Positions 546-13,909 are shown, counted from the first letter of the stretch. The stretch is DNA of 33,544 nt from Gemmatimonadota bacterium (GCA_003222155.1 QHUU01000078.1:1-33544), one strand, 5' to 3'. Translations and numbers: made by a program. Notes: generated by a model from the letters alone, not told the origin.

Positions 546-1751
546 GTGAACACCGAGACCCTGCAGCACGTCGCATTGTTCGACAAGTGCAAGAGCTTCA
601 CCAAGGCCCGGGAGCTCCAGTCAGTGGGCTTGTACCCGTACTTCCGGCCCATTTCCCACTCCGAAGACACCGTCGTCGTCATCGAGGGCAAAGAGCGGAT
701 CATGATGGGCTCCAACAACTATTTGGGGCTCACGCATCATCCGGCGGTGCTCGCGGCGGCGAAGCAGGCGCTCGAGCGCTACGGGTCGGGCTGCACCGGC
801 AGCCGGCTCTTGAACGGCACGCTGGACCTGCACGAGCGGCTCGAGCAGGAGCTGGCGCAGTTCTTCGGGAAGGAAGCGTGCCTCGTCTTCTCGACCGGCT
901 ATCAGGCGAACCTGGGGCTGATTTCGGGGCTGGTGGGCCGGGGCGACGTGGTGTTCCTCGACAAGCTCGACCATGCGTCGATCGTGGACGGCGCCAAGAT
1001 GTCCTACGGCGAGACGGTGCGCTTCAACCACGGCGACCTGGCCGCGCTGGAGCGTAAGCTGCAGCAGGTGCCCCCCGGCACCGGGATGATGGTCATTGTC
1101 GACGGCGTCTACTCCATGGAGGGAGACATCGCCGACGTACCCAGCCTGCTCAAGATCTGTCAGAAGTACGGGGCGGCGCTCGCGCTCGACGACGCGCACG
1201 CCGTGGGCGTGCTCGGCCCCCGCGGCGACGGCACGGCGGCACACTTCGGGCTCACCGACGAGGTGGATATCATCGTCGGGACGTTCTCCAAGTCGCTCGC
1301 ATCGATCGGCGGCTTCGCGGCGGGCTCGGACAACGTCATCCACTTCCTGAAGCACAACTCCCGACCGCTGATCTTCACGGCCGCGCTGCCGCCGGCGAAC
1401 ACGGCAGGCGTGCTCGCCGCGCTCGACATCCTGCAGCGCGAGCCCGAGCGGCGCGAGTGCCTGTGGCAGAACACGCGCCGGCTCCAGAACGGCCTGCGCT
1501 CGCTCGGCTTCGACATCGGCCCGACCGAGACGCCCATCGTACCGGTGCTCATCGGCCCGCTCGAGAAGACGTTCCTGTTCTGGCGGAAGCTGTTCGAAGC
1601 GGGTGTGTTCACGAACCCGGTAGTGCCGCCTGCCGTACCGCCCTCGCATTGCCGGCTGCGCACCAGCCTGATGGCGACGCACACGGCGCAGCAGATCGAC
1701 CATGCGTTGGAGGTGTTCGCCCGGCTCGGCAAAGAGCTGGGGGTCATCTGA
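546..1751 (+). CDS. spt: Serine palmitoyltransferase (alpha-oxoamine synthase family)
   Basis: The 401-residue PLP enzyme starts at GTG. The family condenses serine with a fatty acyl-CoA to 3-ketosphinganine, the first committed step of sphingolipid synthesis, in the cytosol. Visible landmarks are the stacking histidine in LDHASIVDG (His143), the DDAHAVG loop (Asp216, His218), the PLP lysine in [13 protein letters not shown] (Lys249) and the [13 protein letters not shown]-terminal signature. The GTFSKS..(G)GF form around the lysine is typical of serine palmitoyltransferase rather than of AONS or KBL, which carry a TxGKAxG-type motif. Length matches soluble bacterial enzymes. It overlaps the next gene by four bases and heads an operon with ceramide synthase and ceramide reductase homologues, which strongly supports this call over 8-amino-7-oxononanoate synthase; no biotin genes are nearby. 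Confidence 0.9.
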
Positions 1752-2860
1752 GCCTTCCGGAGATCGCGCCCGTCACCGACGGGCGCGGTCTCGCGCAGTT
1801 CATTGCCTTCCCCTACGACCACTACCGCGGCGACCCGCTCTGGGTGCCGCAACTGCGGATGGACGTCCGCACCCTGCTCACACCGGGCAAGAACCCGTTC
1901 TTCCAGCACGCCCAGGCGCAGTACTTCCTGGCGCGGGTCAACGGGAGGACGGTCGGGCGGATCGCTGCCATCAAGAACGACGCGCACACGCGCGAGCACG
2001 GCGACCGGGTCGGGTTCTACGGCTTCTTCGAGTGCATCGACGACCCGGCGGCGGCGCGGGCGCTGTTCGACACCGCGGCCACCTGGCTGCGCGCGCGTGG
2101 TCTGCGGGTGATGCGCGGGCCCATGAGCCCGTCGATCAACGACGAGTGCGGACTTCTGGTCGAGGGCTTCGACACGCCGCCCACGCTGATGATGCCCCAC
2201 AACCCGCCCTACTACGTCGGCCTGCACGAGGGCTACGGCTTCGCCAAGGCGAAGGACCTGCTCGCCTTCGAGAGCCCCAACGCCCGGATGCCCGAGCGGA
2301 TCGCGCGCGCGGCCAAGGTGATCGCGGAGCGCAAGAACATCACGCTGCGGCCGTTGAACATGAAGCGGTTCAGGCAGGAGGTAGAGCTCGTCAAGGCGCT
2401 CTACAATCAGGCGTGGGAGAAAAACTGGGGGTTCGTTCCCCTCACCGACGCCGAAATCGACCACCTGGCCAAGCAGCTCAAGCCGATCGTCGAGCCCGAC
2501 CTGGTGTGCTTCGCGGAGCGGCAGGGCGAGGTGATCGGATTCGCCGTCGCTCTCCCCGATTTCAACGTCGCCCTCAAGCACAACCCCTCGGGGCGCCTGT
2601 ATGGATTGCCGAAAATCCTCTGGTATGCGCGCAAGATTCATCGCTGCCGCATCCTCCTGCTCGGCACCGTGAAGGCGTACCGCATGAGCGGGGTGGACGC
2701 CCTGATGTACCATTGGATCTGGACCAAGGGCGCGACCCACGGCTACCACTGGGGCGAGGGGGGCTGGATCCTCGAGGACAACGTCCCCATGGTGAACGGC
2801 GCCCTGCAGCTCGGGTTTCGTCCGTACAAGACGTACCGGATCTACGACAAGCCGCTGTGA
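1748..2860 (+). CDS. bcerS: Bacterial ceramide synthase (GNAT-fold N-acyltransferase)
   Basis: This 370-residue protein resembles the GNAT-like family whose Caulobacter member, bCerS, N-acylates 3-ketosphinganine to 3-oxo-dihydroceramide. The family-like N-terminus includes the block [20 protein letters not shown], then [40 protein letters not shown] and a C-terminal acyltransferase half ending [23 protein letters not shown]. There is no ATG, GTG or TTG in frame near the expected N-terminus. CTG at 1748, overlapping the spt stop as CTGA and preceded by a G-rich GCTGGGGG, gives the family's usual length, so I use it. The frame stays open upstream into spt, but that part looks like out-of-frame coding and not like the family. 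It overlaps cerR by four bases. Confidence 0.82.
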
Positions 2861-3822
2861 GGGCGTTCGTCACCGGCGGGACGGGCTTCGTCGGGGCGCA
2901 CCTGGTCCGTGCGCTGCGCGCTCAGGGCGACGCGGTGACGTGCCTGGTTCGAGCCCCTGCCCGGGCGCAGGCGCTGGGATGGACGGACGTTCGCCTGGTT
3001 TGCGGCGACCTGGACGACGCGCGCGCGCTGCGCGAGGGGTGCGCCGGCGTGGAGGTGATCTACCACGTCGCGGGACGCATCAGCGCGCGCGGTCTCGACG
3101 AGTTCATGCACGCCAATCGCGACGGTACGGCCAATGTGCTGGAAGCCGCGGCCAAGCAGCCGCCGCGGCGCCTCGTGCTGGTGTCGTCGCTCGCGGCAGC
3201 CGGGCCGACACAGCCGGGGGCGCCGGTCGATGAGACGAGCCCCCCCTCCCCGGTCACGCCGTACGGCCAGAGCAAGCTCGCCGCGGAGCTGCTGGTGCGC
3301 GCGGCGGCTTTCCCCTGGACCATCGTGCGCCCGCCCACCGTGTACGGCGAGCGGGATCGCGAGGTGCTCAAGCTGTTCAAGCTGGCGCGGCTCGGGCTCG
3401 CCCCAGTGTTCGGTGACGGATCCCAGGAGCTGTCGGTCATCTACGCGGGGGATCTCGCGGCCGCGCTGGTGGCGGCGGCGGCGCCCGCCGCGGCGAATCG
3501 CGTGTACTACGCCGCCCACCCCGCGGTGACGACGAGCCGCGCGCTGGTGCGGGCGATCGGGCGCGCGGTCGGCCGAGAGCCCCGCGTCGTATCGCTGCCT
3601 GCCCCCCTCGTGCGCGGCTTGTTGTGGGCGATCGGCTCGGTCGCGCACCTCGCGGGCCGGGCGACCTTGCTCTCGTCGGACAAGGCGGCCGAGTTTCTCG
3701 CGCCGGCGTGGACCTGCCGTCCCGACGCGCTGATGCGTGACACGGGATGGCGGCCCGAGACGGACCTTGAAACCGGCTTGCGACAGACCGCGCAGTGGTA
3801 TCGGAAAGAGGGGTGGCTGTGA
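2857..3822 (+). CDS. cerR: NAD(P)-dependent epimerase/dehydratase-family ceramide reductase
   Basis: The 321-residue extended short-chain dehydrogenase starts at GTG in the quartet GTGA (2857-2860). The Rossmann motif GGTGFVG is at residues 7-13, an acidic GDLDD loop is near 50, serines lie at 110-111 and the catalytic Tyr136-x3-Lys140 sits in TPYGQSK. The substrate-binding part has RPPTVYGERD and the usual C-terminal WRPETDLETGLRQT. In Caulobacter a homologous epimerase-like protein, CerR, reduces the 3-keto group of 3-oxo-dihydroceramide after bCerS acts. The position directly after spt and bcerS gives it the same role here. Without that context the sequence alone would support only a generic NAD-dependent epimerase/dehydratase. 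It overlaps the following PAP2 gene by four bases. Confidence 0.8.
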   Translation: MRAFVTGGTGFVGAHLVRALRAQGDAVTCLVRAPARAQALGWTDVRLVCGDLDDARALREGCAGVEVIYHVAGRISARGLDEFMHANRDGTANVLEAAAKQPPRRLVLVSSLAAAGPTQPGAPVDETSPPSPVTPYGQSKLAAELLVRAAAFPWTIVRPPTVYGERDREVLKLFKLARLGLAPVFGDGSQELSVIYAGDLAAALVAAAAPAAANRVYYAAHPAVTTSRALVRAIGRAVGREPRVVSLPAPLVRGLLWAIGSVAHLAGRATLLSSDKAAEFLAPAWTCRPDALMRDTGWRPETDLETGLRQTAQWYRKEGWL

Positions 3823-4781
3823 GCACTTCACACGACGCCATGACGCCACGTTTCACGACGCTGCTTGCGACGTTGCGTCGTGGCGTCGTGGAACGACTTA
3901 CCGCCGTGGACGTCGTCACGCTCCTCTATATCGCCGTCGCGACCGCGGCGGTCCTGGCGTATTCGGGTCACGACCACGCCAGCTGGGACCTGCTGCTCAC
4001 CGCGCACGCCCTGATCCTGGTCCTGGTGCTGATCGCTCCCGCGGCGCGGCAGGCGGGCCCCATGGGTCGGTTCCTGGGCGACTGGTACCCCATGCTGCTC
4101 CTGGGCGGGCTGTACGCGGAGGTCGGGGTGCTGAACGTGGATCTCGCGTACCAGCACGACCTGGCCATCCAGCGGCTGGAGATGTGGGCGTTCGGCTCCC
4201 AGCTGTCGTATCGCTGGATCCGCGAGATGCCGAATCCGCTGCTCTCGTGGTTTCTCCACGGCTGTTATCTCGCGTACTACGCGATCCTGTACGCCTCGCC
4301 GCTCGGGCTGTGGCTGAGCGGGCGCCGCAGTGCGGCGCGGCGCACGATCTTCGCCGTGATGATCACCTTCTATCTGTGCTACGTGGTGTTCTTGTTCTTC
4401 CCGGTGGCGGGGCCGCGCTACGCGTTCGACCTCGCGCACAACGCGGCGACGGGCGTGTGGCCGGCGCGCGCGACGCAGTGGTTGCTCGACCGCGGCGACT
4501 CGTGGGGCGCCGCGTTTCCGTCGTCGCACGTCGCGGCCGCGGTCGTGGCCGCGGTGTGCGCGCTGCGGTACTGGCGTCGCCTTGGAGTGGTGCTCGCGCC
4601 GTTCACGATCGGCCTGGTGCTGTCGGTGGTGTACGGACAGTTTCACTACGCGGTGGATGCGGTCGCGGGCCTCATCGTAGCGGGCGCGGTGCTCGCCTCC
4701 CACACCGTTTACTACGCGACAGCGCCCGCCGCGGCGCCGGCCGCCCTCGCCGAGCGCGGGCTCGAAACCGGCCGGGCCTAA
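3819..4781 (+). CDS. AUR1/IPC-synthase-like PAP2 membrane enzyme
   Basis: The 320-residue polytopic membrane protein starts at GTG in a GTGA overlap with cerR; GAGGGG at 3808-3813 is a good ribosome binding site. An ATG at 3840 is an alternative. After a soluble leader it has about six or seven membrane helices. The PAP2_3 (AUR1-type) motifs are present: GPRY (198-201), PSSHVAAA with the catalytic His237, and HYAVD with His276 and Asp280 in the H-x3-D arrangement of yeast Aur1. Eukaryotic relatives move phosphoinositol from a phospholipid to ceramide. As the last gene of a ceramide operon, it is inferred to attach a phospho-head group to ceramide, or to remove one. Plain lipid phosphatase activity is the main alternative. 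Its TAA overlaps the stop of the convergent gene. Confidence 0.78.
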
Positions 4782-5380
4782 CCCGGGAGGGCCGCCGCGC
4801 GCGAGGCGACCGTGTCGAGGTCCCCACCGAGCGCGTCCATCTTCCGTTGAAAACGACAGTCGATGATCAGCAAGCCCACCACGTACGCCGTCAGATTGAC
4901 CACGAAGACCACGCTGAAGATGAGCGGGTACGGCAGCCACAACCCGAAGTAGAGCGCGAACCGCTTGACCCCGGGGTCGAGCTGCGAGCGATCGGCGATG
5001 CTCGTCATCAGCAGGATCGCCGACAGCGCAAGGAGCACGAGCCGCCACGGGACGAGGCCCGCCCAACCCAGCCCCGCGAACATCACGGCCTCGGAGGCGC
5101 GGTCCAGCTGGGTGTCGAGCCGCCGCCCGGCGGCCGAGGCGAGCCCGTACGCCCGGGCGATCCCGCCGTCGATCCCGTCCAGTACCTGTCCCAGCGCCAT
5201 CAGGGCGAGGCCCCAACCGAGGCGTCCCACCCCGACGGCCACGCCCGCGGCGGCGCTCGTGCCGAACGCCGCCCACGTCACCTGCGCCGGCGACAAGCCG
5301 AGCGTCTCGTGGCAGAGGCGCAGCAGCGGCCGGATCGCGCGATCCAGACCCCGTCCGATCGCCGGCGCGAAGTCAAACAC
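4778..5380 (-). CDS. CDP-alcohol phosphotransferase (copy 1)
   Basis: A 200-residue integral membrane enzyme carrying the full family signature D-x2-DG-x2-AR-x8-G-x3-D-x3-D: Asp68, Asp71, Gly72, Ala75, Arg76, Gly85, Asp89, Asp93, all metal and CDP ligands. Such enzymes transfer a phospho-alcohol from a CDP-activated donor to a second alcohol, usually in lipid synthesis. The GTG at 5380 is chosen because it lies eight bases inside the end of the preceding gene and gives the normal family N-terminus; longer readings overlap that gene out of frame. It is the last gene of the minus-strand operon, and its TAG overlaps the stop of the ceramide operon. The substrate is unknown; a phosphatidylinositol-phosphate-synthase-like role would suit the neighbours. 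Confidence 0.85.
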
Positions 5381-5816
5381 GGCGGCGGTACCAGTACAGA
5401 GCCGCGTACCCGGCGAGCAGCAGCGCGAAGAGCGTGCCTTCTTTGAGCCTGTCGGAAACCGTGACGAGCCACCCACGGGTGACCCACGTCGAATACGGGT
5501 AGAACGGCATCTTCTCGAACCGCACGCTGTAATCCATCGCCACGTGGATCGCGAAGAACAGCAGCGGCACCACGCTGCCGAGAAACAGGCACAGCGGCAC
5601 GATCCAGAGGAGCGCCACCGGCTCCTGCAGCGAGGAGCGCCAGTAGTAGCCCCGTTTGTCCCGCAGGCCGACGGCGCGGAGGTAGAACGGCGCCTTGACG
5701 ACGTGGTCGATGTCGACGCCCATACCGAAGGCGTAGGCGAGCACCTTGTCGCGTCCCTCGAGGCCCATCGCCTGCACGCCCAGCGTCGTGGCGAGGAAGT
5801 GCGTGAAGACCGTCAT
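5373..5816 (-). CDS. YdjM/DUF457-like membrane metal-dependent hydrolase
   Basis: A 147-residue membrane protein beginning [13 protein letters not shown]. The ATG at 5816 overlaps the stop of the upstream gene as ATGA. Probable metal ligands follow the YdjM-like pattern: His6, then VDIDHV (Asp35, Asp37, His38), then HVAMD (His91, Asp95), between about three or four hydrophobic helices. Relatives are predicted membrane hydrolases of unknown substrate. Placed between a flippase-like gene and a CDP-alcohol phosphotransferase, it may act on a lipid or lipid precursor, but that is only inference. Confidence 0.6.
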
Positions 5817-6817
5817 GGCGTGGCGGCCCCGGCCGGCGCCGCCCGGCGGCGCCCCGACAGCCAAACGAGGCCGACGCCCGCGCCGATCCACGCGAGATCG
5901 CGCACCCGACTCACGATGGCAGTGTAGACACCGAGTGCCGGGTCGAGGCCCAGCAGCTGGAACAGCAGGTAGAGCGAGCCTTCCTTCGTGCCCGCCTCGA
6001 ACGGGACCACAAACAGCGCGTTCTGGACGAGCTGCGTGAGGCCACCGATGACGTACGCCCGGGCGTAGCCGATGTCGAGCCCCACCGACAGGGCGATGAG
6101 CAGGTACTCGGCCATGAAGAGGCAGCGGCTGGCGTACTCGAGCGCGAGGGCCTGGAGGAAGCGGCGTGGGCTCGCGTGGTAGAACTGGGCGATCTGCTCG
6201 TCCATCGAGGCGAGCGTGGCGCGCTTGGGCTCGAGGCGTCGGGCCAGCCGGTCGAGCAGCGGCGTCCGGTGCAGCAGGTCGAGCGCGCCCGCGAGCATGC
6301 CCCGCTGGTGGCCCGTGAGGAGCAGCAGCGCCAGGACGGCGAGCACGAGGAAGGCCGCGGCCAAGAGCGCGACGATCACCGGGGCATGGGGCAGGAGAAT
6401 CAGGCCCAGCACCACGGCGGTGAGAAGGCTCAGCAGCATGCCGAAGGTGTGCAGCATCTGATAGATCACCGCCGAGCCGGCGGCGCGCCGCAGCCCGAGC
6501 CAGGGCGCGACGGCCGCGATCTTGAACGGCTCGCCCCCTACGTTGACGAGCGGCGTCATGAAGTTGAGCGAGAAACTGGCTACGGTGATCGCCCAGGCGC
6601 GCCAGAACGGCGGGCGGCTCGGCTCACCCGCCATCACGAGCCACCACGCGCCGGCGTTGCAGGCGCACACCGCGCCGTACAGCAGCAGGATCGGTACGAA
6701 CATCCAGCCCGTCCGCCGCGCGTCCGCGAGCAGCGCCGCCACGCCGATGCGCGCCACCAGATAGGCGAACACCGCGGAGCCGACGACGAACAGCAGGGCC
6801 TGGAGCCGACGACTCAC
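5813..6817 (-). CDS. Flippase-like lysylphosphatidylglycerol-synthase TM-domain protein
   Basis: The 334-residue multi-helix protein (about eight membrane spans) resembles the LPG_synthase_TM (flippase-like) family. Landmarks are FMTPLVNVGGEPFKI near residue 100, where the family carries a conserved P-x-x-x-GGEP/K motif, and VPFEAGTKEGSLYLLFQLLGL late in the protein, matching the family's PxGxGxxEG-type loop. The family includes the lipid-translocating half of MprF and hopanoid/glycolipid transport proteins; the aminoacyl-transferase half is absent. GTG at 6817 overlaps the stop of the Gfo/Idh gene as GTGA. In this operon it probably moves the finished or half-finished lipid across the membrane. 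Substrate cannot be read from the sequence. Confidence 0.82.
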   Translation of the reverse strand: MSRRLQALLFVVGSAVFAYLVARIGVAALLADARRTGWMFVPILLLYGAVCACNAGAWWLVMAGEPSRPPFWRAWAITVASFSLNFMTPLVNVGGEPFKIAAVAPWLGLRRAAGSAVIYQMLHTFGMLLSLLTAVVLGLILLPHAPVIVALLAAAFLVLAVLALLLLTGHQRGMLAGALDLLHRTPLLDRLARRLEPKRATLASMDEQIAQFYHASPRRFLQALALEYASRCLFMAEYLLIALSVGLDIGYARAYVIGGLTQLVQNALFVVPFEAGTKEGSLYLLFQLLGLDPALGVYTAIVSRVRDLAWIGAGVGLVWLSGRRRAAPAGAATP

Positions 6818-7863
6818 ACGCCGTCCGGGATCGTCACGGTCGCGCCGCTCCGGGCGGCCGCGTACGCGTGCTCCACGACGCTCGCCACGCGGGCGATGTC
6901 GTCCAGGAATCGCGTGCCGGCGTCCCCCGAGTCCAGCGCGGCGACGAACGCCTCGAACAGACAGGCGAACCACCGGTGATACGCCGTCTTGTCCAGCTCG
7001 GCCGCGAAGTCCAGCCGCTCCACGGCGCCCCCGCGCTCGAGCCGCAGCTCACCGTCCACCCATTCGATCGTGCCGGCATCCCCGACGAAGCGGATGCGGT
7101 TCTCACGGGTGCGTCCGGCCCACGTGAAGAACATCGTCGCCAGCCGGCCGGGATATTCGAACCGCAGGGCGGCCGTGTCCTCGACGTCGTATCCCGCGTG
7201 CCGCAGTGTGCCCGTCCAGGCGCTCACCGCAGCCGGCATGCCGGCGACGTCGAGCAGCTGGTAGACGAGATGCGTGCCGTGGTCGAGCAGCACGCCGCCC
7301 CGTCCCGTCGCGCTGGTGCCCCGCCAGGGCGTGCTCCCTGCTTGCGCTCCTCCGGCCCGGCCGGGGTCGGCCGCGAGCCGGTGGACGGAGAACTCCGCCA
7401 GGTGCCAGCGACCGATGGCTCCGGCCGCGAGCCACTCTTTCACCCGCAGCCAGGCCGGGTTGTAGCGGTACTGGTGGCACGGCATCACGATGCGGGCGCT
7501 GGCCCGGGCAGCCGCGGCGATCCGGGCGGCCTCGGCGCGAGTGAGCGCCACCGGCTTCTCGCACACCACGTGGTACCCCTGCTCGAGTCCCCACATGATG
7601 AGCTCGAGGTGGGAGGCGGTCGGCGTGCAGATATCGATGAAGTCGAGCGGGGCGAGGTCGCGCAACGCCGCGCGGTCGCCCAGCAGGGGGATCCCGTCCA
7701 CCGGCGGAACGGCGGGCGCGCTGTCCACGATGGCGACGACGTCGACGCGGCCGCGGAGGGCGGCGCCCCGCAACGCGGGCAAATGCGACTGCCGCGCGAT
7801 GCCCCCGGCTCCAATCAGGGCACCACGGTACCGCCCCGGCTCAGGTGACGCGGGCGTAGGCAT
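6814..7863 (-). CDS. Gfo/Idh/MocA-family NAD(P)-dependent oxidoreductase
   Basis: The 349-residue enzyme starts at an ATG preceded by GGAG with a four-base gap, 23 bases inside the end of the CDP-alcohol gene. The Rossmann motif GAGGIA is at 18-23, the catalytic lysine lies in CEKPVA (Lys103), and the active-site loop GRGGVLLDHGTHLV supplies Asp194 and His198, as in inositol 2-dehydrogenase and related sugar dehydrogenases. The family oxidises or reduces a ring hydroxyl of sugars and cyclitols with NAD(P). Beside a class III aminotransferase, it could make a keto intermediate for amination (as in inosose to inosamine), which is inference. Length and motifs are complete. Confidence 0.85.
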   Translation of the reverse strand: MPTPASPEPGRYRGALIGAGGIARQSHLPALRGAALRGRVDVVAIVDSAPAVPPVDGIPLLGDRAALRDLAPLDFIDICTPTASHLELIMWGLEQGYHVVCEKPVALTRAEAARIAAAARASARIVMPCHQYRYNPAWLRVKEWLAAGAIGRWHLAEFSVHRLAADPGRAGGAQAGSTPWRGTSATGRGGVLLDHGTHLVYQLLDVAGMPAAVSAWTGTLRHAGYDVEDTAALRFEYPGRLATMFFTWAGRTRENRIRFVGDAGTIEWVDGELRLERGGAVERLDFAAELDKTAYHRWFACLFEAFVAALDSGDAGTRFLDDIARVASVVEHAYAAARSGATVTIPDGV

Positions 7864-8743
7864 TGTGCTCCGCGTCGAGCAGGCCGCCCAGGGCGGTGGC
7901 ATTCCACTCGTGCATCCACAGGAGCACCACGAGCAGCAGGCTCATCCACACCGCCTCGGTCCACAGGAACACCGACGGGCGCCCGGCGAGCCCCGCGACG
8001 CCGAGCACGATGAAGCGGATGTTCTGCCCCAACCACGCGCACAGGGGCAGCACGGCGTCCTGGCGGGCGCGGTACTGCGTCCGGAAGGGCGTCGAGACGC
8101 CGCCCTGCCGCAGGGCACGGATGAGCTTCACCGAGCGGGGGAACAGCTGGACCTGTCGCACCACGTAATCGCGGTACACGCGTGCGCCGAACCGCTCGAG
8201 CAGCGAGCCGCGCGGGGTGGGGTCCAGGTCCTCGGGGAGGTCGAGCTCACCCCGGCCGCCTACCCCGATGTACAGGAACGCGTTGCGCACGAAGTCGATG
8301 GCCGCGCTCTGGAACGTGTGCGCGAGCCCGGCGGCCGCGACGAGCAAGCACGCGCCCGGCCACCAGAAGCCCGCGGCGATGAGTCGGTACATCAGATGGA
8401 AGTAGAGGTTGACGAAGCGGAGGTTGTCGTTGATCCCGTCCAGGGCCCGGCCGAAACGGGTGGACGTGCCGCGCAGCCGCGCCAGCTGCCCGTCCGCCGA
8501 GTCGAACACGTCCGACACGATGAAGAGCCCGAAGCCGATCAGGTTCGTCCAGTGGTCGCGGTAGGCGAACAGGTGGCCGGCCACCAGCCCGATGACGAGC
8601 GACCACAGGGTCACCTGATCGGCGGAGATGCCGGTGGGCTGCAACGCGCGGGCGATCCGGATGCCAATGGGCCGGAAGAAGTGGAGGTCCACCCACTCCT
8701 CGACCGACCGTCCCTTATGCGACAAGTCGTTCGGTGGCTTCAC
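7841..8743 (-). CDS. CDP-alcohol phosphotransferase (copy 2)
   Basis: A 300-residue membrane enzyme longer than copy 1. The complete signature is present: Asp81, Asp84-Gly85, Ala88-Arg89, Gly98, Asp102, Asp106, in DSADGQLARLRG..GRALDGIND. The first 20 residues are soluble and a long central segment (about 165-230, LYIGVGGRGELD.. to ..RQDAV) probably faces the cytosol, unlike copy 1. A CDP-linked donor is expected, and the upstream nucleotidyltransferase could make it. The start at 8743 overlaps the aminotransferase end by 29 bases, and the stop overlaps the Gfo/Idh start. Copies 1 and 2 differ in length and surroundings, so they probably act on different substrates. Confidence 0.87.
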   Translation of the reverse strand: MKPPNDLSHKGRSVEEWVDLHFFRPIGIRIARALQPTGISADQVTLWSLVIGLVAGHLFAYRDHWTNLIGFGLFIVSDVFDSADGQLARLRGTSTRFGRALDGINDNLRFVNLYFHLMYRLIAAGFWWPGACLLVAAAGLAHTFQSAAIDFVRNAFLYIGVGGRGELDLPEDLDPTPRGSLLERFGARVYRDYVVRQVQLFPRSVKLIRALRQGGVSTPFRTQYRARQDAVLPLCAWLGQNIRFIVLGVAGLAGRPSVFLWTEAVWMSLLLVVLLWMHEWNATALGGLLDAEHNAYARVT

Positions 8744-10049
8744 TGAGCACGTCCTTCATGATGGCGAGGGCGCCCATCGCCTGGTCTTCCTCGATGACCA
8801 GCGGCGGGTTGATGCGGACCTCGGGGTTGTAGATCATCGCCAGCACGCCGCGCGACAGCAGCGTGTCGAAAATCCAGCGGGTCGTCTTCTTGTCGAGCAG
8901 CGTGCGGGTGCCGGGGACCACGAGATCCAAGCCGAGCAGCAGGCCGCGGCCCCGCACGTCCGACACGATCGGCAGCTGCGACGGCCAGCGCTTCAGCTCG
9001 GCCAGCATGCGCTCGCCCACCCGGCGTGCGTGCTCCACCAGGTTCTCCTCGACGATCGTCTCCACCGTCACGCGCGCCGCCGCGGCCGCCAGCGGGTTGC
9101 CGCCGTACGACGACGAGCTGCCGCTCGGGTTGGCCCAGGGCCGCGAGAACGCGATCTCTTCGCGAGCGATCACGCCGCTCATCGGAAACCCGCCCCCGAA
9201 TCCCTTGCCCACCGTCAGGATGTCCGGAAGCACGCCCTCGTGCTCGATCGCGAACATCTTGCCGGTGCGCCCGAACCCCGTGATCATCTCGTCGCAGATC
9301 AGCAGCGCGCCCAGCTCGTCGGCGAGCTCGCGCAACAGCCGCAGGTAGCCCGGCGGCGGCACGACGTTGCCCGCCGTGCCCTGGATCGGCTCCACGATGA
9401 TGGCCGCCACCTCCTTCGTGGTCTCGACCTCGACCTTCTTGCGCAGGAAGTCGACGCAATGCCATTCGCATGACGGGAAGGTCTTGCCGAACGCGCACCG
9501 GGCGCACGAGGCGTAGGGCGAGAGGTACGCCCCCGGCATCAGCGGCCCGAGCGCGTGCTTGAAGCTCGATCCCAGGACCGGGAGCACGCCCCCGGTCTTG
9601 CCATGGAACCCGCCCCAGAACCCGATCACCTCCGTATGTCCCGTGCGCGACTTCGCCAGCCGCAGCGCCGCCTCCACCGCCTCGGCGCCGCTCGAGTAGA
9701 ACTGGCTGCGGTTCAGGTCGCCGGGAGCGAGCTCGGCGAGCAGCTTGACCAGCGCCGCCCGGTGCTCGGTGGTGAAGCTCCCCACGTGCACGCGGGCGAT
9801 CTGCCGCTGCATCGCGGCGACGTACTTGGGATGCGCGTAGCCGAGGCTCGCCACTCCCACGCCGGCGAGGAGATCGATGTAGCGGTTGCCGTCCACGTCG
9901 TACAGCACGGCACCTTCGCCACGGTCGATCGACAGGTGGCTGAACAGCGCCACGCTCTGCGTGCCGGGCGCCAGGTACAGCGCCTCGGCGTCGAACAGCG
10001 CCTTGGACCTGGGGCCGGGAATCTGGAGCCTGCGCAACGTATGGGTCAC
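8715..10049 (-). CDS. Class III PLP aminotransferase
   Basis: The 444-residue fold-type I enzyme shows SSGAEAVEAALR (119-130), the PLP-ring Asp253 in CDEMITGFGRTG, and the PLP lysine Lys282 in LTVGKGFGGGFP. Closest in form are 4-aminobutyrate, ornithine and polyol-type aminotransferases of the class III group; the substrate is not evident. An inserted cysteine cluster (Cys182, 185, 194, 198; C-x2-C-x8-C-x3-C) could bind zinc or a redox centre; related thermophile and archaeal enzymes have similar cysteines. The ATG overlaps the stop of the ATP-grasp gene as ATGA (10049-10046). With a Gfo/Idh dehydrogenase encoded nearby, amination of a keto sugar or cyclitol is a reasonable hypothesis; amino acid catabolism is the alternative. 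Confidence 0.85.
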   Translation of the reverse strand: MTHTLRRLQIPGPRSKALFDAEALYLAPGTQSVALFSHLSIDRGEGAVLYDVDGNRYIDLLAGVGVASLGYAHPKYVAAMQRQIARVHVGSFTTEHRAALVKLLAELAPGDLNRSQFYSSGAEAVEAALRLAKSRTGHTEVIGFWGGFHGKTGGVLPVLGSSFKHALGPLMPGAYLSPYASCARCAFGKTFPSCEWHCVDFLRKKVEVETTKEVAAIIVEPIQGTAGNVVPPPGYLRLLRELADELGALLICDEMITGFGRTGKMFAIEHEGVLPDILTVGKGFGGGFPMSGVIAREEIAFSRPWANPSGSSSSYGGNPLAAAAARVTVETIVEENLVEHARRVGERMLAELKRWPSQLPIVSDVRGRGLLLGLDLVVPGTRTLLDKKTTRWIFDTLLSRGVLAMIYNPEVRINPPLVIEEDQAMGALAIMKDVLSEATERLVA

Positions 10050-10897
10050 GAACGTTTCCGGTGAGCGAACCGATGGGTAATGTAGGCCGCGATGGCGCGC
10101 GCCGCCCCCTCGCGGAACGGGGCGAAGCTGGGCCAGTCGTTGATGTCGATCAAGACGGGCCGGTCGGGCTCCGGGAACGCGACGTCGCCGCCGAACACTT
10201 CGAGTCCGAGAATCGCCGCCGCCTCGAAGGCGAGCGCCTTGAGGCGATTCTCATCCACCAGGGGACGCTCGCCGGCGAACCCCGCATCCGCCCCGTACCA
10301 ATTGAAAAACCGGCCGTCGGTCACGCCGTAAAACTTCACTACCGGCCCGGGCACGTGCTCCTGCAGCGCCACCCAGGGAATGCCGCGGGCGGTGAAGGCC
10401 CGCAGCGTCTCTCCCAGACCGTCCAGCGTCGTCGCGACCACATCCTCCGGACGCTCGGCGTGTACGTCGCCGCGCTTGATCCAGACCTTCTGGTGATCGG
10501 GACGGAGGGCGCTGAGGTGGGCGGGCGGCGGGAGCGGCGCGGAGCTGGCGAGGATGAGCGTGCGGGGAAACGGCAGCGTGCTGTCGCCGAGGCGCCTGAC
10601 CAGCCGATACCGGTGGCAATTCAACGCGCTCGACGGGCGGTTCACCACGACGATACCGTCGGACTCGAGGGGCATGAGCTGCTCGGCCGCCAGCGAGCCC
10701 TGGCACATATTGAGGTAGAGCTCGGCCGCCGGGAGGCGGCCCTGCTCCACCTCGCGTTCCGTGGTCTTGGTGGCGCGCCAGCCCTCGGCCTCGAGCAACC
10801 CGACGGTGGCGTCCAGGATGGCGGTGTCGTTCACGCGGTGCTGCAGCGGCGAGTACGACGGGCTGCGGTAAATCGCGACCAGTTGGCCCAAGGTCAC
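10046..10897 (-). CDS. ATP-grasp enzyme, possible polyol/inositol kinase-like
   Basis: A 283-residue protein starting at GTG in the quartet GTGA (10897-10894), which overlaps the nucleotidyltransferase stop. The frame is open further upstream, but that part overlaps a certain gene. ATP-grasp features are the nucleotide-binding VWIKRGDVHAER block, LQEHVPGPVVKFYGV, and the metal-binding end LGLEVFGGDVAF..PVLIDINDWPSF. The D-x-N-x-x-P-S/G-F ending is shared by RimK-like ligases and by the inositol-phosphate kinase ITPK1, whose equivalent segment is similar. It therefore could be a carboxylate-amine ligase or a kinase for a polyol. Operon position favours head-group synthesis. Substrate is unresolved. 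Confidence 0.7.
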   Translation of the reverse strand: MTLGQLVAIYRSPSYSPLQHRVNDTAILDATVGLLEAEGWRATKTTEREVEQGRLPAAELYLNMCQGSLAAEQLMPLESDGIVVVNRPSSALNCHRYRLVRRLGDSTLPFPRTLILASSAPLPPPAHLSALRPDHQKVWIKRGDVHAERPEDVVATTLDGLGETLRAFTARGIPWVALQEHVPGPVVKFYGVTDGRFFNWYGADAGFAGERPLVDENRLKALAFEAAAILGLEVFGGDVAFPEPDRPVLIDINDWPSFAPFREGAARAIAAYITHRFAHRKRS

Positions 10898-11604
10898 CTT
10901 TCGCGCGCGGCGAGCCACGCGTTCGCAGTCTGAAGATCCGATGGCCGATCGATATCGATGATGCGCGGCACCTCGACCGCCGCCACCCGCCGCCCCTCCG
11001 CCACCAGCCCCTTGAGGAAGGCACGCATCTTGTGCACGCCGCGGGCGACGGCGTCCGCCGCGGCCAGACGGGCCGCCGCGCTCAGGCCGTACGCCCCGCC
11101 GGTCACGCACACGGGCGCCACCGGCTCGTCGCTCACGGCGCGCACATCACCGTCCCCGCGCCGGCTCACGTACACCGGAGACTCGTCGTCCACGTACGGC
11201 GTCACAGCGAGCACCAGCTCGGCGCCCTCCTCGAGATACCGCCCGGCCGCCCCATAGACCGCGTTCCAGTCCTCCGGCCGCATCACCGTGTCCACCATGC
11301 TGCAGAACACCGGCCCGCCGGCCATTCCCCGCAGTCCCTCGACCAGCGTGTGCAGCGAGGAGGGGGTACGGCAGGTCACCACTGTAAGGGGCGGGCCGAA
11401 CCGCCTCCCGTCAAGCAAGCGCCGGACGGCCGGGAAATCCGCACGAACTGCACACGTGAGGCTGGAGCACCCCAACGCAGCGAAGGTCTCGAGCAGGCCG
11501 ACGATCTGAGGCCTGCCCGCCACTTCGACGAGCGGCTTGGGAACGGCAATTCCCCCCGCCGCGAGACGGGAACCCTCGCCGCCGGCGAGGATGAGTCCGT
11601 GCAC
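10894..11604 (-). CDS. NTP-transferase-family nucleotidyltransferase
   Basis: The 236-residue protein starts at GTG, two bases after the HAD gene stop. LILAGGEGSRL (5-14) is the nucleotide-binding signature, followed by PKPLVEVAGRP (22-32), and the C-terminal half ends with IDIDRPSDLQTANAWL, the DxDxPxDL-type ending of sugar- and polyol-phosphate nucleotidyltransferases. The family joins an NTP to a phosphorylated sugar or alcohol with release of pyrophosphate. Two CDP-alcohol phosphotransferases in the same operon suggest CTP as the donor nucleotide and a phospho-polyol (for example an inositol phosphate) as acceptor, a relation known from the inositol-phosphate cytidylyltransferase/DIPP synthase pair. 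The nucleotide and sugar are not provable from sequence. Confidence 0.8.
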   Translation of the reverse strand: MHGLILAGGEGSRLAAGGIAVPKPLVEVAGRPQIVGLLETFAALGCSSLTCAVRADFPAVRRLLDGRRFGPPLTVVTCRTPSSLHTLVEGLRGMAGGPVFCSMVDTVMRPEDWNAVYGAAGRYLEEGAELVLAVTPYVDDESPVYVSRRGDGDVRAVSDEPVAPVCVTGGAYGLSAAARLAAADAVARGVHKMRAFLKGLVAEGRRVAAVEVPRIIDIDRPSDLQTANAWLAARER

Positions 11605-11606
11605 CT

Positions 11607-12308
11607 TTAGGCGAGCACCCTTTCGACGTCCACGAAGCGGGCGATGCGGGCGGTGGGGACCTGCGCCTCCCCCTCCGCGGCCCCCGCCCGCGGGGGCAAC
11701 GCTCGTTCCGGCGGAGCGAGCCAGCAGGTGCGCATGCCGAGCGCCGCGGCGCCGCGAATGTCCGCCTCGAAGTTGTCCCCCACCATCCAGGCACGCTCCG
11801 GGCCGGCTGCCAACGTGGCCAGCGCGCCGAGGAAGATGCGTGGATCGGGCTTGCTCCATCCGACCACCGCGGAGTCGGTGACTGCAGCGAACAATCTCGC
11901 CAGGCCCAGCTCATCCAAACAAGGCTGCAGGTTGCCGGTAAAGTTCGACACGACACCCAGCCGGTAGCGCCGGGCCAGCCGCTCCAGGACCGGGCGGTTG
12001 CGCTGCACGACGGCCAGAGCCTCGCCGTGCAGACGCCGGGCGACCGCCGCCGGATTCACGCGCGCACCCGCGGGAAGGACCTCGTCCAGCAGGCGAGCTT
12101 GGGTCTCGATCGCGGCCCGGAACCCGAGCGCCGCGATGCCCGGCAACCGCGCCAGGGCCTGGTCGGACAGCTTGAAGAACGAATCGAAGGCCGCGAGGTC
12201 GAGGGTGCCCCCTTCGGCGCGATAGGCCATGTGAAACCGGGGGCTCCAGTGCACGCCGTCCGCGTCGAGCGTGCCGCCGAAGTCCAGCAGCACGACTTCG
12301 GCGGTCAC
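11607..12308 (-). CDS. HAD-superfamily hydrolase-like protein
   Basis: The 233-residue protein starts at GTG one base after the preceding stop. HAD motif I reads LLDFGGTLD, so the nucleophile Asp9 is present but the usual second aspartate (general acid/base, D-x-D) is Gly11. Motif II is VVSNF, motif III the lysine in SKPDPRIF and motif IV MVGDNFEAD. A C1 cap of helical character (about 20-85) lies between motifs I and II. The family removes phosphate from small metabolites or moves it. DFGxTL forms occur in apparently functional relatives, so the loss of the second Asp may mean altered chemistry, not decay. A role in dephosphorylating or making the phospho-polyol used by the next gene is inferred from position. 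Confidence 0.75.
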   Translation of the reverse strand: MTAEVVLLDFGGTLDADGVHWSPRFHMAYRAEGGTLDLAAFDSFFKLSDQALARLPGIAALGFRAAIETQARLLDEVLPAGARVNPAAVARRLHGEALAVVQRNRPVLERLARRYRLGVVSNFTGNLQPCLDELGLARLFAAVTDSAVVGWSKPDPRIFLGALATLAAGPERAWMVGDNFEADIRGAAALGMRTCWLAPPERALPPRAGAAEGEAQVPTARIARFVDVERVLA

Positions 12309-12309
12309 C

Positions 12310-13389
12310 TCAGCGGTGGCCGTGCGCGGCGTGCTCGTGCCCGGCCGTCGTCATGGGCATCGCGGTTCCTGCCATGTTCATCTCGTGTCCACCGACGAGA
12401 CGCATGTAGTGCAGGTAGTCCTCGTGGTAGAGCGAGTCGCGCGGCTCGGCGGCCGGCCACGTGGCGCCACGATCGGGCACGAACAGGCCGCCCACCACGC
12501 CCATGCCGCCGTCCGGAATCGGCTGACCGGTCGGGTTGTCGTACGATACCGTCACGCGATAGCGGTGCTCGGGAACCACGTGCACGCCGAGGCGCGTCCA
12601 TCCGAAGAGGAACGCGACCGGAACCGACGCGATGTGGCCGCCCGCGTCGGCCACGGGAGCCGCACGGTAGATCACCTCACCGGTGGTCGCGTCCGCGAAC
12701 TCGATCACGCGGCCGTAGTCGTGCATGTGGCCCCCCAGGGCCACGATCTTCCCCGGCACGATCGGGTTCCCTTGGTAGGATCGCGACGAGCGGCCCGGCG
12801 GGAGCGTGAACGACTTGTCGCCGACCGGGAACGCCACGTCCATCTGCCAGGGCGAGGCGCTGAACAGCGGCCACGGCCGGCCGGCCGGGGTGAAATTCAT
12901 CGCGAGCCGCACGCGCGCCCGCGGGTAGGCCGCGCTGGTCAGGTTCTCGACCATCGCGCTGGCGACGACGTGCTCCCCGCGCTCGAGCGGCAATCCGAAC
13001 AACAGGCGCGGCAGGCGGATGGCGCCGGTCTCGTGCCCGGCCGCGAGCAGGCGGCGCGAGATCGGGAGGAACAGCTCGCGGTGATCGGGATCGATGAGAT
13101 TGAAGTGATGAATGAGCTCATCGGGCAGCGGGTGTCCGGCGCTGTCCACGACCTGCACCCGGAAGCCATAGATGAATCCCGTCTCCGGAATCTCGAGCGT
13201 CGCGACGGGTGGCTGCGCGATCATGTGATGCGGCGTGTTGGCCGGCAGATCCGTCGGGGCGAGGTCGATGACGAGCATGCCTGCTGCCGCGTCGCGAAAG
13301 ATGCGGGCGGCGGCCGCGTCCGGCACGCGAAAAGCCCCGTCGCTCGACCGAGCGAGTAGCAGGAGACCAAGGAGCAGGCGGTTGATCAT
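12310..13389 (-). CDS. Secreted protein with PHM/DBM-like copper-ligand pattern
   Basis: The 359-residue protein has a short signal peptide (MINRLLLGLLLLA) and no family I can name with certainty. Its putative copper ligands occur in the order found in type II copper monooxygenases (peptidylglycine and dopamine hydroxylases): a His-His pair (94-95, LIHHFNLID), a middle histidine (His119 or His140), a His-Met-His (221-223, GGHMHDYG) and a methionine about 200 residues after the pair (Met296). Spacing is close to the PHM pattern HH-(~134)-HxH-(~70)-M. The C-terminus is rich in His and Met (GHEMNMAGTAMPM, HEHAAHGHR), as in copper-trafficking tails. It follows a cupredoxin gene by 61 bases, and its stop lies one base before the HAD start. 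It could instead be a structural beta-sandwich copper-binding protein without enzyme activity. Confidence 0.6.
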   Translation of the reverse strand: MINRLLLGLLLLARSSDGAFRVPDAAAARIFRDAAAGMLVIDLAPTDLPANTPHHMIAQPPVATLEIPETGFIYGFRVQVVDSAGHPLPDELIHHFNLIDPDHRELFLPISRRLLAAGHETGAIRLPRLLFGLPLERGEHVVASAMVENLTSAAYPRARVRLAMNFTPAGRPWPLFSASPWQMDVAFPVGDKSFTLPPGRSSRSYQGNPIVPGKIVALGGHMHDYGRVIEFADATTGEVIYRAAPVADAGGHIASVPVAFLFGWTRLGVHVVPEHRYRVTVSYDNPTGQPIPDGGMGVVGGLFVPDRGATWPAAEPRDSLYHEDYLHYMRLVGGHEMNMAGTAMPMTTAGHEHAAHGHR

Positions 13390-13450: not shown

Positions 13451-13909
13451 CTATTGGACGGTGATGGTGATGTGCATGCCCAGCGCGACGTGCGGCATAC
13501 AGTAGCCCTTGTAGACGCCGGCCGGGGCGCCCGCAAAGGACACGTCGTATTTCTCGTTGGGCTGAGTGAGGAACGGTCCCGTGAGGTCACCCATCGGGTT
13601 CGGCATCCCCTTCTTCAGCGCGTCGGCGCCGCCCTTCGGCACCGAGTCGCCGTAGAAGGCAACATTGTGCGGGCCGCCCGATACATTGATGAAACGAACC
13701 GTCGTGCCGGTCTTGATCGTCAGCTTGTTGGGCTCGAACGAGGCCTGGCTCGTGCCGTTGCCGGTCATCTTCACTTCGACCACGGCGCCGGCCGGTTCGG
13801 CGGTCGGCGCTGGCGTTGCAGCCTCGGCCTGGGACGCCGCCGACTTCTTCTCGCCGCCGCAGGCGACGGCCGTGAACGCGACGAGCGTGGTAAGCAGGGT
13901 GAACCGCAT
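13451..13909 (-). CDS. Type I copper (cupredoxin/plastocyanin-like) lipoprotein
   Basis: The 152-residue protein has a lipoprotein signal ending in AVAC, with Cys17 as lipid anchor, then an Ala/Thr/Pro-rich linker (about 20-42). The cupredoxin domain (about 43-152) shows His81 (GGPHNVAF) and the loop Cys137, His140, Met145 (YCMPHVALGM), a complete type I copper set. Such proteins carry electrons at the cell envelope. A strong GGAGGG precedes the ATG by six bases. It is followed by the PHM-like gene, so it may feed electrons to, or share copper with, that protein. Upstream is the 18-base palindrome. Confidence 0.88.
   Translation of the reverse strand: MRFTLLTTLVAFTAVACGGEKKSAASQAEAATPAPTAEPAGAVVEVKMTGNGTSQASFEPNKLTIKTGTTVRFINVSGGPHNVAFYGDSVPKGGADALKKGMPNPMGDLTGPFLTQPNEKYDVSFAGAPAGVYKGYCMPHVALGMHITITVQ

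Follow-up and report, generated by a model that had tools for sequence, protein, structure and literature searches.

The window, a 33,544-nucleotide stretch of DNA from a Gemmatimonadota bacterium, carries two convergent sets of genes between positions 546 and 12308. The plus-strand order spt-bcerS-cerR-PAP2 was confirmed from 546 to approximately 4781, and nine tightly packed minus-strand genes converge on it. With the starts chosen here, neighboring genes overlap or are separated by no more than about 20 bases, and the last codons of the two operons overlap by 4 bases (4778-4781). All genes named in the first-pass annotation of this region are present in the order and on the strands it gave; for the YdjM-like protein, no match was found in Pfam or NCBIfam. 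The features are as follows.

546..1751, plus strand: spt, serine palmitoyltransferase (PDB and NCBIfam matches)
1757..2860, plus strand: bcerS, ceramide synthase-like acyltransferase (Roseomonas gilardii relative with Caulobacter-like surroundings)
2857..3822, plus strand: cerR-like NAD-dependent epimerase/dehydratase-family reductase (PF01370, 132 bits)
about 3840..4781, plus strand: PAP2-superfamily membrane protein (PF14378, PAP2_3, 72 bits, obtained with a longer ORF)
12308-11607, minus strand: HAD-superfamily protein, candidate phosphatase, first gene 5' to 3' (PF00702, 58.5 bits)
11604-10894, minus strand: MobA-like nucleotidyltransferase, candidate cytidylyltransferase (PF12804, 41.9 bits, longer ORF)
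10900-10046, minus strand: ATP-grasp enzyme, candidate inositol/inosamine kinase (predicted fold and profile match)
10049-8715, minus strand: class III PLP aminotransferase (PF00202, 319 bits, the sole Pfam match listed)
8743-7841, minus strand: CDP1, CDP-alcohol phosphotransferase with full catalytic motif (PF01066, 44.6 bits)
7857-6814, minus strand: Gfo/Idh/MocA dehydrogenase (PF22725/PF01408/PF02894)
6814-5813, minus strand: LPG_synthase_TM (flippase-like) protein (PF03706, 83.7 bits, longer ORF)
5816-5373, minus strand: small membrane protein, named YdjM-like in the first-pass annotation (no family match)
about 5389-4778, minus strand: CDP2, second CDP-alcohol phosphotransferase (PF01066, 39.5 bits, longer ORF)
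12310-13389, minus strand: possible tenth operon gene, abutting the HAD gene

The best PDB match of Spt is the Sphingobacterium serine palmitoyltransferase (8guh/3a2b) at 441 bits, followed by other serine palmitoyltransferases at 318 bits and Kbl/BioF-type chains at about 313 bits or less. Against NCBIfam NF047600 (serine palmitoyltransferase) it scores 541 bits, below the equivalog cut-off of 640. The higher score of the Sphingobacterium enzyme over the Kbl/BioF-type places the window protein in the Spt group at the level of sequence similarity. bCerS is 45% identical over its full length to a protein of Roseomonas gilardii, and its sole Pfam match is Acetyltransf_6 (E 0.09). This Roseomonas relative has LptF/LptG-type permeases and a sterol-desaturase-family gene on its 5' side, a nucleotidyltransferase on its 3' side, and CDP-alcohol transferase and metallophosphoesterase genes close by, a neighborhood resembling that described for Caulobacter CC_1154 (PMC11324152). 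The window CerR is identified at superfamily level only; relatives of both bCerS and CerR adjoin spt in the window, and cerR lies 3' of bcerS in eight window-type relatives (L039, L040, L042, L045-L047, L049 and L050). A 706-codon ORF (1702-3822) considered as a gene fusion was rejected, as cerR has its own start (GTG 2857). While Caulobacter and the window share spt, CerS and CerR, the phosphoglycerate head group and second Lpt transport gene copies described for Caulobacter (PMC11324152) have no counterpart in the window operon. Caulobacter further has AcpR and AasR as partners in this pathway.

The PAP2 gene occurs in 13 of the 80 loci compared and in none of the 61 listed loci L138-L198. 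A PDB sequence search returned no relative of this protein, and its structure model is unusable (pLDDT 44.6). PAP2_3 (PF14378) is the Pfam family of AUR1-type transferases; the gene sits beside CDP-alcohol transferases, and its product is at most a candidate phosphoinositol-ceramide transferase of the AUR1/BT_1522 type.

Within the minus-strand operon, HAD motif I reads D-x-G-G-T in 53 of 55 relatives, the usual second Asp being absent. Profile relatives of the nucleotidyltransferase are all weak, with mannose-1-P guanylyltransferase first and glucose-1-P cytidylyltransferase, CTP:phosphocholine cytidylyltransferase and CTP:inositol-1-P cytidylyltransferase among them; the protein is closer to sugar-phosphate enzymes than to inositol enzymes. 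The fourth motif Asp is missing from its usual place in 31 of 60 CDP1 relatives, all of them outside the 24 Gemmatimonadota ones. CDP2 has the full D..DG..AR.{8}G...D...D motif and its best NCBIfam match is archaetidylinositol-phosphate synthase (52.5 bits, below the cut-off of 180). Residues E100-K101-P102 and D192/H196 of the Gfo/Idh protein are kept in all 53 aligned sequences, and its PDB relatives are headed by uncharacterized proteins, with sugar and inositol dehydrogenases among the others. Five Ignavibacteria loci (L166, L171, L173, L190 and L192) have relatives of the YdjM-like protein (52-56% identity) next to CDP2. The earlier proposal that a head group is activated and then attached by a CDP-alcohol transferase is supported. 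Both CDP-alcohol transferases also show weak matches (26-29 bits, cut-off 580) to the IPCT/DIPPS NCBIfam model, and CDP-inositol routes serve solute synthesis in hyperthermophiles (PMC9246714), yet a non-lipid product, namely a soluble compatible solute of di-inositol-phosphate type, is very improbable, given the LPG_synthase_TM protein, PAP2, Mla and ceramide genes surrounding the block.

A block of seven of the nine genes (HAD, nucleotidyltransferase, ATP-grasp, class III aminotransferase, CDP-alcohol transferase, Gfo/Idh and LPG_synthase_TM) keeps its order in all 17 Gemmatimonadota loci with enough flank, so this arrangement is not due to chance; the block recurs in phyla beyond Gemmatimonadota. 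Two forms were observed. The compact form consists of the nucleotidyltransferase, ATP-grasp, CDP-alcohol transferase and HAD genes, usually beside inositol-phosphate synthase, while the enlarged form, to which the window belongs, has the dehydrogenase and aminotransferase in addition. These two genes are all-or-none: 48 of 58 well-flanked loci have both, 10 have neither and none has a single one. The ATP-grasp tree contains three changes between the forms, one of which rests on the long branch L184. In the order to which L196 (a Paludibacteraceae MAG) belongs, eleven compact loci all have nucleotidyltransferase-ATP-grasp-CDP1, with HAD in 10 and inositol-phosphate synthase in nine, and none of the 11 has the aminotransferase or Gfo. 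Among the compact loci, L212 seems to repeat L182, the two contigs being equal in length.

Of the 80 loci, 26 have inositol-phosphate synthase next to the block (15 of 17 in Ignavibacteriota, 9 of 10 in Bacteroidota, one in Chlorobiota and one unassigned), which makes a cyclitol head group likely, as the first-pass annotation had suggested. Both forms neighbor this gene in Ignavibacteriota and Bacteroidota, and the synthase of L159 was verified by a Pfam check (343 bits). None of the Gemmatimonadota, Verrucomicrobiota and Acidobacteriota loci among the 80 contains it. The synthase of the window genome sits on another contig (Pfam-checked, 316 bits) and says little, since 88 of 101 relatives carry one; in the relative G070 gene and operon share a contig and are some 5 kb apart.

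The pathway had been put forward as a candidate new one; it is not wholly new, since the compact form, compared by description, contains the same set of genes as an uncharacterized cluster known from gut bacteria, the "alternative inositol lipid cluster" (Bacteroides vulgatus/Prevotella), proposed by Heaver et al. (2022) for B. vulgatus and P. veroralis, makers of phosphoinositol-dihydroceramide (PMC9246714). The window shares with it a nucleotidyltransferase, a CDP-alcohol transferase, a HAD protein and a lysylphosphatidylglycerol-synthase-type protein, and adds the Gfo/Idh dehydrogenase, the class III aminotransferase, a second CDP-alcohol transferase and the YdjM-like protein. In the B. vulgatus type, inositol-phosphate synthase is in the vicinity, with exceptions such as P. 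copri (PMC9246714); it is not in the vicinity in the window, which we therefore file as an enlarged relative and not a member of this type. One gene fits each numbering gap between BVU_RS13095 (NTP), RS13105 (Ptrans) and RS13115 (HAD), and judging from this numbering the gaps would coincide with the positions of the ATP-grasp and LPG-type genes in relatives; the available text of PMC9246714 makes no mention of an ATP-grasp protein. Bacteroides thetaiotaomicron BT_1522-1526 build an inositol lipid on dihydroceramide, as is likewise proposed for the window, but through a phosphoinositol-phosphate intermediate and, as described there, without a nucleotidyltransferase of the window kind (PMC9246714).

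The pairing of Gfo/Idh and aminotransferase in window-type loci is also that of the inosose route to aminocyclitols. Inositol-phosphate synthase, phosphatase, Gfo/Idh-family dehydrogenase and aminotransferase, plus a kinase, are the enzyme types of the streptomycin pathway. The first four also give inosamine in hygromycin A biosynthesis (PMC10949010), and the same source counts 1,236 cases of class III next to PF01408 versus 15,139 of DegT. These two pathways end in an antibiotic part, whereas the window has a class III enzyme and a CDP/lipid-transfer end. No DegT-type (PF01041) aminotransferase was matched, the window enzyme being PF00202. Inosose aminotransferases are typically DegT-type rather than class III. 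This would suit a plain or epimerized (e.g., scyllo- or chiro-) inositol head group, with Gfo and aminotransferase serving, for example, redox tailoring or nitrogen supply and no amino-inositol lipid being made. So would the ordinary phosphoinositol-dihydroceramide of compact-cluster species (Heaver et al., PMC9246714). We consider such a head group quite unlikely, however, because the pair is kept or lost as a unit and because, in Gemmatimonadota, its two genes alternate with those for ATP-grasp, CDP1 and LPG, as would suit enzymes that act on the head group. The dehydrogenase and aminotransferase behave as one unit, in line with the amination step proposed earlier; the aminated compound would be inositol.

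The Pfam match of the ATP-grasp enzyme is marginal (E 0.04); the fold is confirmed by a confident structure model (pLDDT 94.4) and by fold matches. Profile and fold comparisons point to different relatives. The top PDB match of the profile, though weak, is ITPK4 at E 8e-4 (best single stretch only E 0.02), with RimK at about E 0.04 (no single stretch better than 0.7), whereas fold comparison ranks ATP-grasp ligases first (RimK, ArgX and D-Ala-D-Ala ligases), with ITPK1 at rank 12 in the Foldseek list. The closest PDB relatives of the aminotransferase are alanine/serine racemase, then 4-aminobutyrate-type aminotransferases. The fold matches and the racemase would be consistent with a ligase joining an amino acid supplied by the aminotransferase/racemase to an (amino-)inositol head group, resulting in an aminoacylated inositol lipid. 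This appears improbable, as the enzyme is retained where both aminotransferase and Gfo are missing and as D239, D252 and N254 occur in all 60 relatives, with a D-x-N metal motif that ITPK4 shares and where RimK has E-x-N (printed alignments); ITPK4 also heads the profile matches, though weakly. ITPK/PPIP5K-type inositol phosphate kinases share the ATP-grasp fold and active-site residues with the window enzyme. Since the compact form also carries it, its job would be independent of the amine; we favor a putative role as kinase.

spt or bcerS adjoins the block in 30 of the 80 loci, and ceramide genes do so in different arrangements in Gemmatimonadota, Verrucomicrobiota, Acidobacteriota and Bacteroidota. 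However, they are outside the fetched stretch in eight of the 17 well-flanked Gemmatimonadota loci and adjoin the block in none of 17 Ignavibacteriota loci. The comparison across Gemmatimonadota called for by the first-pass annotation upholds the seven-gene order, half bears out the neighborhood break named there as refuting, and speaks against strict linkage of the two operons; a head-group operon beside a ceramide operon is partly supported. A further 27 genomes were checked, all but one with a locus that lacks both spt and bcerS. Spt-grade and bCerS matches coincide in 24 of the 27 (with weak bCerS matches of 155-181 bits in three of these) and are absent from three. bCerS is carried by 23 of 24 operon genomes versus 45 of 77 others, counts that ignore kinship; in the family to which the window's organism belongs, the figures are 21 of 22 versus 35 of 39, which is not telling. 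One genome with the operon (G058, 94% complete) has no bCerS match. Mla-type lipid-transport genes lie inside L159, L161 and L166 (Pfam check for L166 only), and Heaver et al. suggest that the compact cluster works through a diacylglycerol intermediate (PMC9246714). The Mla genes, this intermediate and the loci without adjoining ceramide genes could be explained by aminated inositol on diacylglycerol, i.e., an amino-phosphatidylinositol, with ceramide genes adjacent as both outer-membrane lipids are made together. The joint occurrence of Spt and bCerS in genomes with neither gene in the locus, and the differently arranged adjacency in four phyla, make this somewhat unlikely. Ceramide is a putative acceptor, the one we prefer; no sequence favors it over diacylglycerol.

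Our main reading, with a probability of about 0.55, is that the minus-strand genes form an enlarged inositol-lipid cluster making an inosamine phospholipid, most probably inosamine-phosphoceramide on the spt-bcerS-cerR ceramide. Observed are the gene set and its kept order, the tie between Gfo and aminotransferase, the nearness of inositol-phosphate synthase in other phyla and the joint occurrence with ceramide genes. The substrates, products, step order and acceptor that we infer are the following. Inositol-phosphate synthase, encoded elsewhere in the genome, would provide inositol phosphate, from which the HAD protein would strip the phosphate. The Gfo/Idh enzyme would oxidize inositol to inosose and the class III aminotransferase would convert this to inosamine, to which the ATP-grasp enzyme would add phosphate. 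The nucleotidyltransferase would then form the CDP derivative, and CDP1 would move phospho-inosamine onto ceramide, or onto diacylglycerol, in which case CDP2 or PAP2 may act as a second transferase or swap head groups. The lipid may be moved or protected with the help of the LPG_synthase_TM protein.

More tentatively, and at somewhat less than even odds, amino-inositol phosphosphingolipids may be an undescribed lipid class that Gemmatimonadota, Verrucomicrobiota, Acidobacteriota and Ignavibacteriota make with a conserved operon, while a compact sister operon would make plain inositol lipids in Bacteroidota with an overlooked ITPK-like ATP-grasp inositol kinase. If so, one two-gene amination cassette would switch lineages from inositol to inosamine sphingolipids or back, and the window operon may yield a lipid class without earlier description.

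The possible tenth gene (12310-13389) has no Pfam match and no convincing PDB match; its relatives lie near spt in L138, L141 and L147.

The window is one entire contig of a 3.45-Mb genome that is 95% complete; among named relatives, the nearest ones found are Gemmatimonadetes MAGs. The gene list proposed for 546-12308 in the first-pass annotation was borne out; the "YdjM-like" label that it gave to a small membrane protein has no family support in Pfam or NCBIfam. Neighbouring genes nearly touch or overlap, and the final codons of the plus- and minus-strand operons overlap.

Genes of the ceramide and head-group operons in the window
546-1751, plus strand: spt, ceramide operon
1757-2860, plus strand: bcerS, ceramide operon
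2857-3822, plus strand: cerR, ceramide operon
about 3840-4781, plus strand: PAP2_3 protein, ceramide operon
12308 down to 4778, minus strand: nine-gene operon (HAD, nucleotidyltransferase, ATP-grasp, class III aminotransferase, CDP1, Gfo/Idh, LPG_synthase_TM, small YdjM-like, CDP2; CDP1 and CDP2 are CDP-alcohol phosphotransferases)
12310-13389, minus strand: 359-codon open reading frame abutting HAD, possible tenth operon gene

The 359-residue product of 12310-13389 contains a GGHMHDYG stretch and gave no Pfam and no convincing PDB match. Its relatives are found near spt in distant Gemmatimonadota (loci L138, L141 and L147), so this protein may belong to ceramide metabolism. A plastocyanin-like copper protein (13451-13909, minus strand) adjoins the operon, and cytochrome c and NrfD-type genes (21125-23560, minus strand) lie farther right.

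Among PDB chains, Spt matches Sphingobacterium serine palmitoyltransferase best (441 bits), compared with about 318 bits or less for other bacterial serine palmitoyltransferases, about 313 or less for Kbl/BioF-type chains and 262 for cysteate fatty-acyltransferase. bCerS has no above-threshold Pfam match (best Acetyltransf_6, E 0.09), and a Roseomonas gilardii protein is 45% identical to it across its length. Upstream of the gene for this relative are a sterol-desaturase-family gene and LptF/LptG-type permeases, and downstream of it is a nucleotidyltransferase; a metallophosphoesterase and a CDP-alcohol transferase lie close by. The gene company of Caulobacter CC_1154, as described in PMC11324152, is much like it. 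A bCerS-like frame also occurs in 45 records of a plasmid collection, including 13 from Roseomonas and 3 from Escherichia. A fusion of bCerS and CerR (ORF 1702-3822) was rejected as an artefact of a long upstream frame.

The minus-strand operon is a real, conserved and biochemically coherent gene cluster. In a search of 101 genomes with CDP1, an E-value of 0.001 was too loose as a marker, giving matches in 92 genomes because the family is common; matches of 1e-60 or better (24 genomes) were taken as orthologues. Stretches were fetched from 25 genomes: 23 that carry the operon, leaving aside that of the window, and two with weak CDP1 matches, where CDP1 is the sole gene recognised (L037 and L038). 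Seventeen orthologue loci have sufficient flanks (L034, L035, L039, L040, L042, L045-L047, L049-L051 and L053-L058), while the other six end at contig ends (L036, L041, L043, L044, L048 and L052). The order HAD-nucleotidyltransferase-ATP-grasp-aminotransferase-CDP1-Gfo-LPG_synthase_TM is kept in all 17. The proposed convergence with ceramide genes holds in nine of these (L039, L040, L042, L045-L047, L049, L050 and L057, the last lacking PAP2 and belonging to a different family of the order), and ceramide genes are missing from the fetched stretch in the other eight. The link between the two gene blocks is therefore recurrent, not obligatory. bCerS was found in 23 of 24 operon genomes versus 45 of 77 others (Fisher P 3.6e-4), where the others include two genomes with both the ATP-grasp gene and bCerS that the strict CDP1 cut-off missed (G003 and G059); by genus the counts are 14/14 versus 32/46 (P 0.026), and both P values ignore kinship. 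Counted in the family of the window alone, bCerS is in 21/22 versus 35/39, which is uninformative. In a phylum sample of Gemmatimonadota, the ATP-grasp gene is present in 32 of 298 genomes.

An ATP-grasp profile (A1, 16 sequences) retrieved 234 related stretches from a genome collection, and the best 80 of these were analyzed. They belong to Gemmatimonadota (38, overlapping the CDP1-selected loci, so that the two sets are not independent), Ignavibacteriota (17), Bacteroidota (10), Verrucomicrobiota (8), Acidobacteriota (2), Pseudomonadota (2), Chlorobiota (1) and Eisenbacteria (1), with one unassigned locus, L176. The latter comes from a Patescibacteria record with a 1.2-Mb genome and neighbours a Melioribacteraceae sequence in the ATP-grasp tree; it may be misbinned. 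Window proteins mapped onto these 80 loci are the nucleotidyltransferase (76), HAD (76), CDP1 (73), aminotransferase (67), Gfo (62) and the LPG protein (56).

A gene for myo-inositol-1-phosphate synthase lies within 26 of the best 80 loci, immediately following HAD or near it in those whose gene order was read; that of L159 scores 343 bits in Pfam. These loci comprise 15 of 17 Ignavibacteriota, 9 of 10 Bacteroidota, the Chlorobiota locus and L176, and include both the enlarged form of the block, which has the Gfo-aminotransferase pair, and the compact form without it. The gene was found in none of the loci of Gemmatimonadota (0/38), Verrucomicrobiota (0/8), Acidobacteriota (0/2), Pseudomonadota (0/2) or Eisenbacteria (0/1). 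The window's genome has it elsewhere, outside the operon, and in another searched genome (G070) it is about 5 kb from the operon. Genome-wide presence was dropped as a discriminating test, since 88 of 101 relatives possess the gene regardless of the operon; the link rests solely on its position next to the block in other phyla. The order to which L196, a Paludibacteraceae MAG (Bacteroidales), belongs was sampled separately with 119 genomes, and 12 of them have the ATP-grasp gene. Eleven loci were fetched, of which L212 seems, from its identical length, to be the same contig as L182, and L217 ends at a contig end. The nucleotidyltransferase-ATP-grasp-CDP1 order is present in all 11, HAD in 10, inositol-phosphate synthase in 9 and the LPG protein in 4; none has the Gfo-aminotransferase pair.

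Few bacteria make inositol lipids, and the alternative, CDP-inositol route of gut Bacteroidota is uncharacterised. ATP-grasp aside, the compact form corresponds to the gene set of the alternative inositol lipid cluster which Heaver et al. (PMC9246714) describe in B. vulgatus and Prevotella, species shown to make phosphoinositol-dihydroceramide, and whose gene functions they give as unconfirmed. The available part of that paper names no ATP-grasp gene for the cluster, and its locus tags leave a one-gene gap between nucleotidyltransferase and transferase, where the loci studied here have ATP-grasp; we infer that the gap gene encodes this enzyme. A review restates the proposal, also without ATP-grasp in the portion available (PMC10191378). 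We regard the operon in the window as a larger relative of an inositol-lipid cluster that is known but still uncharacterised, with a proposed two-gene amination cassette. Our comparison brings a conserved ATP-grasp gene into this type of cluster and shows that it has homologues in Gemmatimonadota, Verrucomicrobiota, Acidobacteriota and Ignavibacteriota as well.

The product is predicted to be an inosamine (aminated inositol) phospholipid, probably a sphingolipid. The Gfo-aminotransferase pair resembles part of the inosamine route proposed for hygromycin A, which according to PMC10949010 comprises inositol-phosphate synthase, a phosphatase, a Gfo/Idh-family dehydrogenase and an aminotransferase. 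Addition of the pair would yield an amino-inositol, a zwitterionic head group. The streptomycin pathway adds a kinase to such steps. The catalytic E-K-P and D/H residues of Gfo are conserved in 53 of 53 sequences. Against an inosamine role of the pair, the aminotransferase belongs to class III and is not of DegT type; its nearest PDB relatives are an amino-acid racemase and 4-aminobutyrate-type enzymes. A literature search of mostly openly accessible journals, judged from listings, recognised no inosamine, aminoinositol or aminocyclitol lipid or such an operon, including among lipids of these phyla. The available main text of a Black Sea sphingolipid paper (PMC11334938) does not contain inositol, Ignavibact- or Gemmatimonad-, and the available text of the lipocone paper (PMC12419801) does not describe the operon. 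If true, the inosamine prediction would name a sphingolipid head group in large, poorly cultured lineages.

Among the 58 of the best 80 loci with at least 6 kb on each side of the ATP-grasp match, 48 have both aminotransferase and Gfo, 10 have neither (one of them, L184, lacking CDP1 too) and none has a single member; the five aminotransferase-only loci among the 80 are all near contig ends. Melioribacter roseus has the enlarged form on the evidence of a MAG (L183), and Olivibacter jilunii P8502 (L185) has the compact one. In the ATP-grasp tree, built from 59 sequences, the pair-less form requires three changes forced by well-supported branches, with the caveats that one change hangs on the long branch of L184 and that several rows have odd composition. 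On this tree the two genes were probably gained or lost together on more than one occasion.

The ATP-grasp gene is retained in loci without the aminotransferase, and its product could be a kinase or a ligase. The predicted model is confident (pLDDT 94.4) and has an ATP-grasp fold; D-Ala ligases, RimK and ArgX come first both in Foldseek and in VIA-align, where their Z is about 19-21.5. In the Foldseek match list maize ITPK1 ranks 12, and ITPK is absent among the best 50 VIA-align matches, which excludes nothing. Since both kinds match, the fold comparison does not discriminate between kinase and ligase. A profile search of the PDB places ITPK4 first (whole-chain E 8e-4, best stretch 0.02), with RimK at about 0.04 (best stretch 0.7 or more). 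In the printed alignments ITPK4 has D-x-N and RimK E-x-N; D239, D252 and N254 are present in 60 of 60 family sequences. On balance we lean towards a kinase for inositol or inosamine.

Motif I of the HAD family (window copy 11607-12308) reads D-x-G-G-T in 53 of 55 relatives; most HAD phosphatases have Asp at a position that is Gly here. The fourth motif Asp of CDP1 is kept in 29 of 60 relatives, including all 24 from Gemmatimonadota; outside this phylum the position is Gly in 27 of the 60 and another residue in 4, and 10 of the 11 loci from the order of L196 have Asp one residue past it. No inference was drawn from the strict CDP-alcohol motif, and a nucleotidyltransferase signature, written too strictly (40/71), was left out of the argument. 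The PAP2 model (pLDDT 44.6) is unusable for judging AUR1 likeness, and PDB searches with the PAP2 sequence gave nothing useful.

At least one of spt and bcerS is located in 30 of the best 80 loci, in differing arrangements (15/38 Gemmatimonadota, 8/8 Verrucomicrobiota, 2/2 Acidobacteriota, 5/10 Bacteroidota). We searched 27 further genomes, none of them from Gemmatimonadota. In 26 of these the locus contains neither gene, the exception being L196 with spt. Spt-grade matches (above 400 bits, against 316 or less for the next class) were found in 24, as were bCerS matches in the same 24, at 278 bits or more in 21 and only 155-181 bits in G125-G127; both were missing in G109, G111 (the 1.2-Mb L176 genome) and G124. 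Such a pattern speaks for ceramide as the acceptor lipid without proving it, since ceramide genes may be common in these lineages in any case. Mla-type transport genes (MlaE, ABC ATPase and MlaD-type) lie inside the operon in L166, as called by Pfam, and in L159 and L161, as judged from the sequence start only, which fits an outer-membrane lipid.

In Bacteroidota (L160, 2276-8475; L170, 1402-8568; L182; L212), a block of spt, two bcerS genes, a CDP-alcohol transferase, a nucleotidyltransferase and a LysE-type protein is located immediately upstream of the compact inositol cluster. It is possibly a second CDP-alcohol module for another sphingolipid head group. L170 adds a class I aminotransferase (Pfam) after the second bcerS, and L182 has a similar frame.
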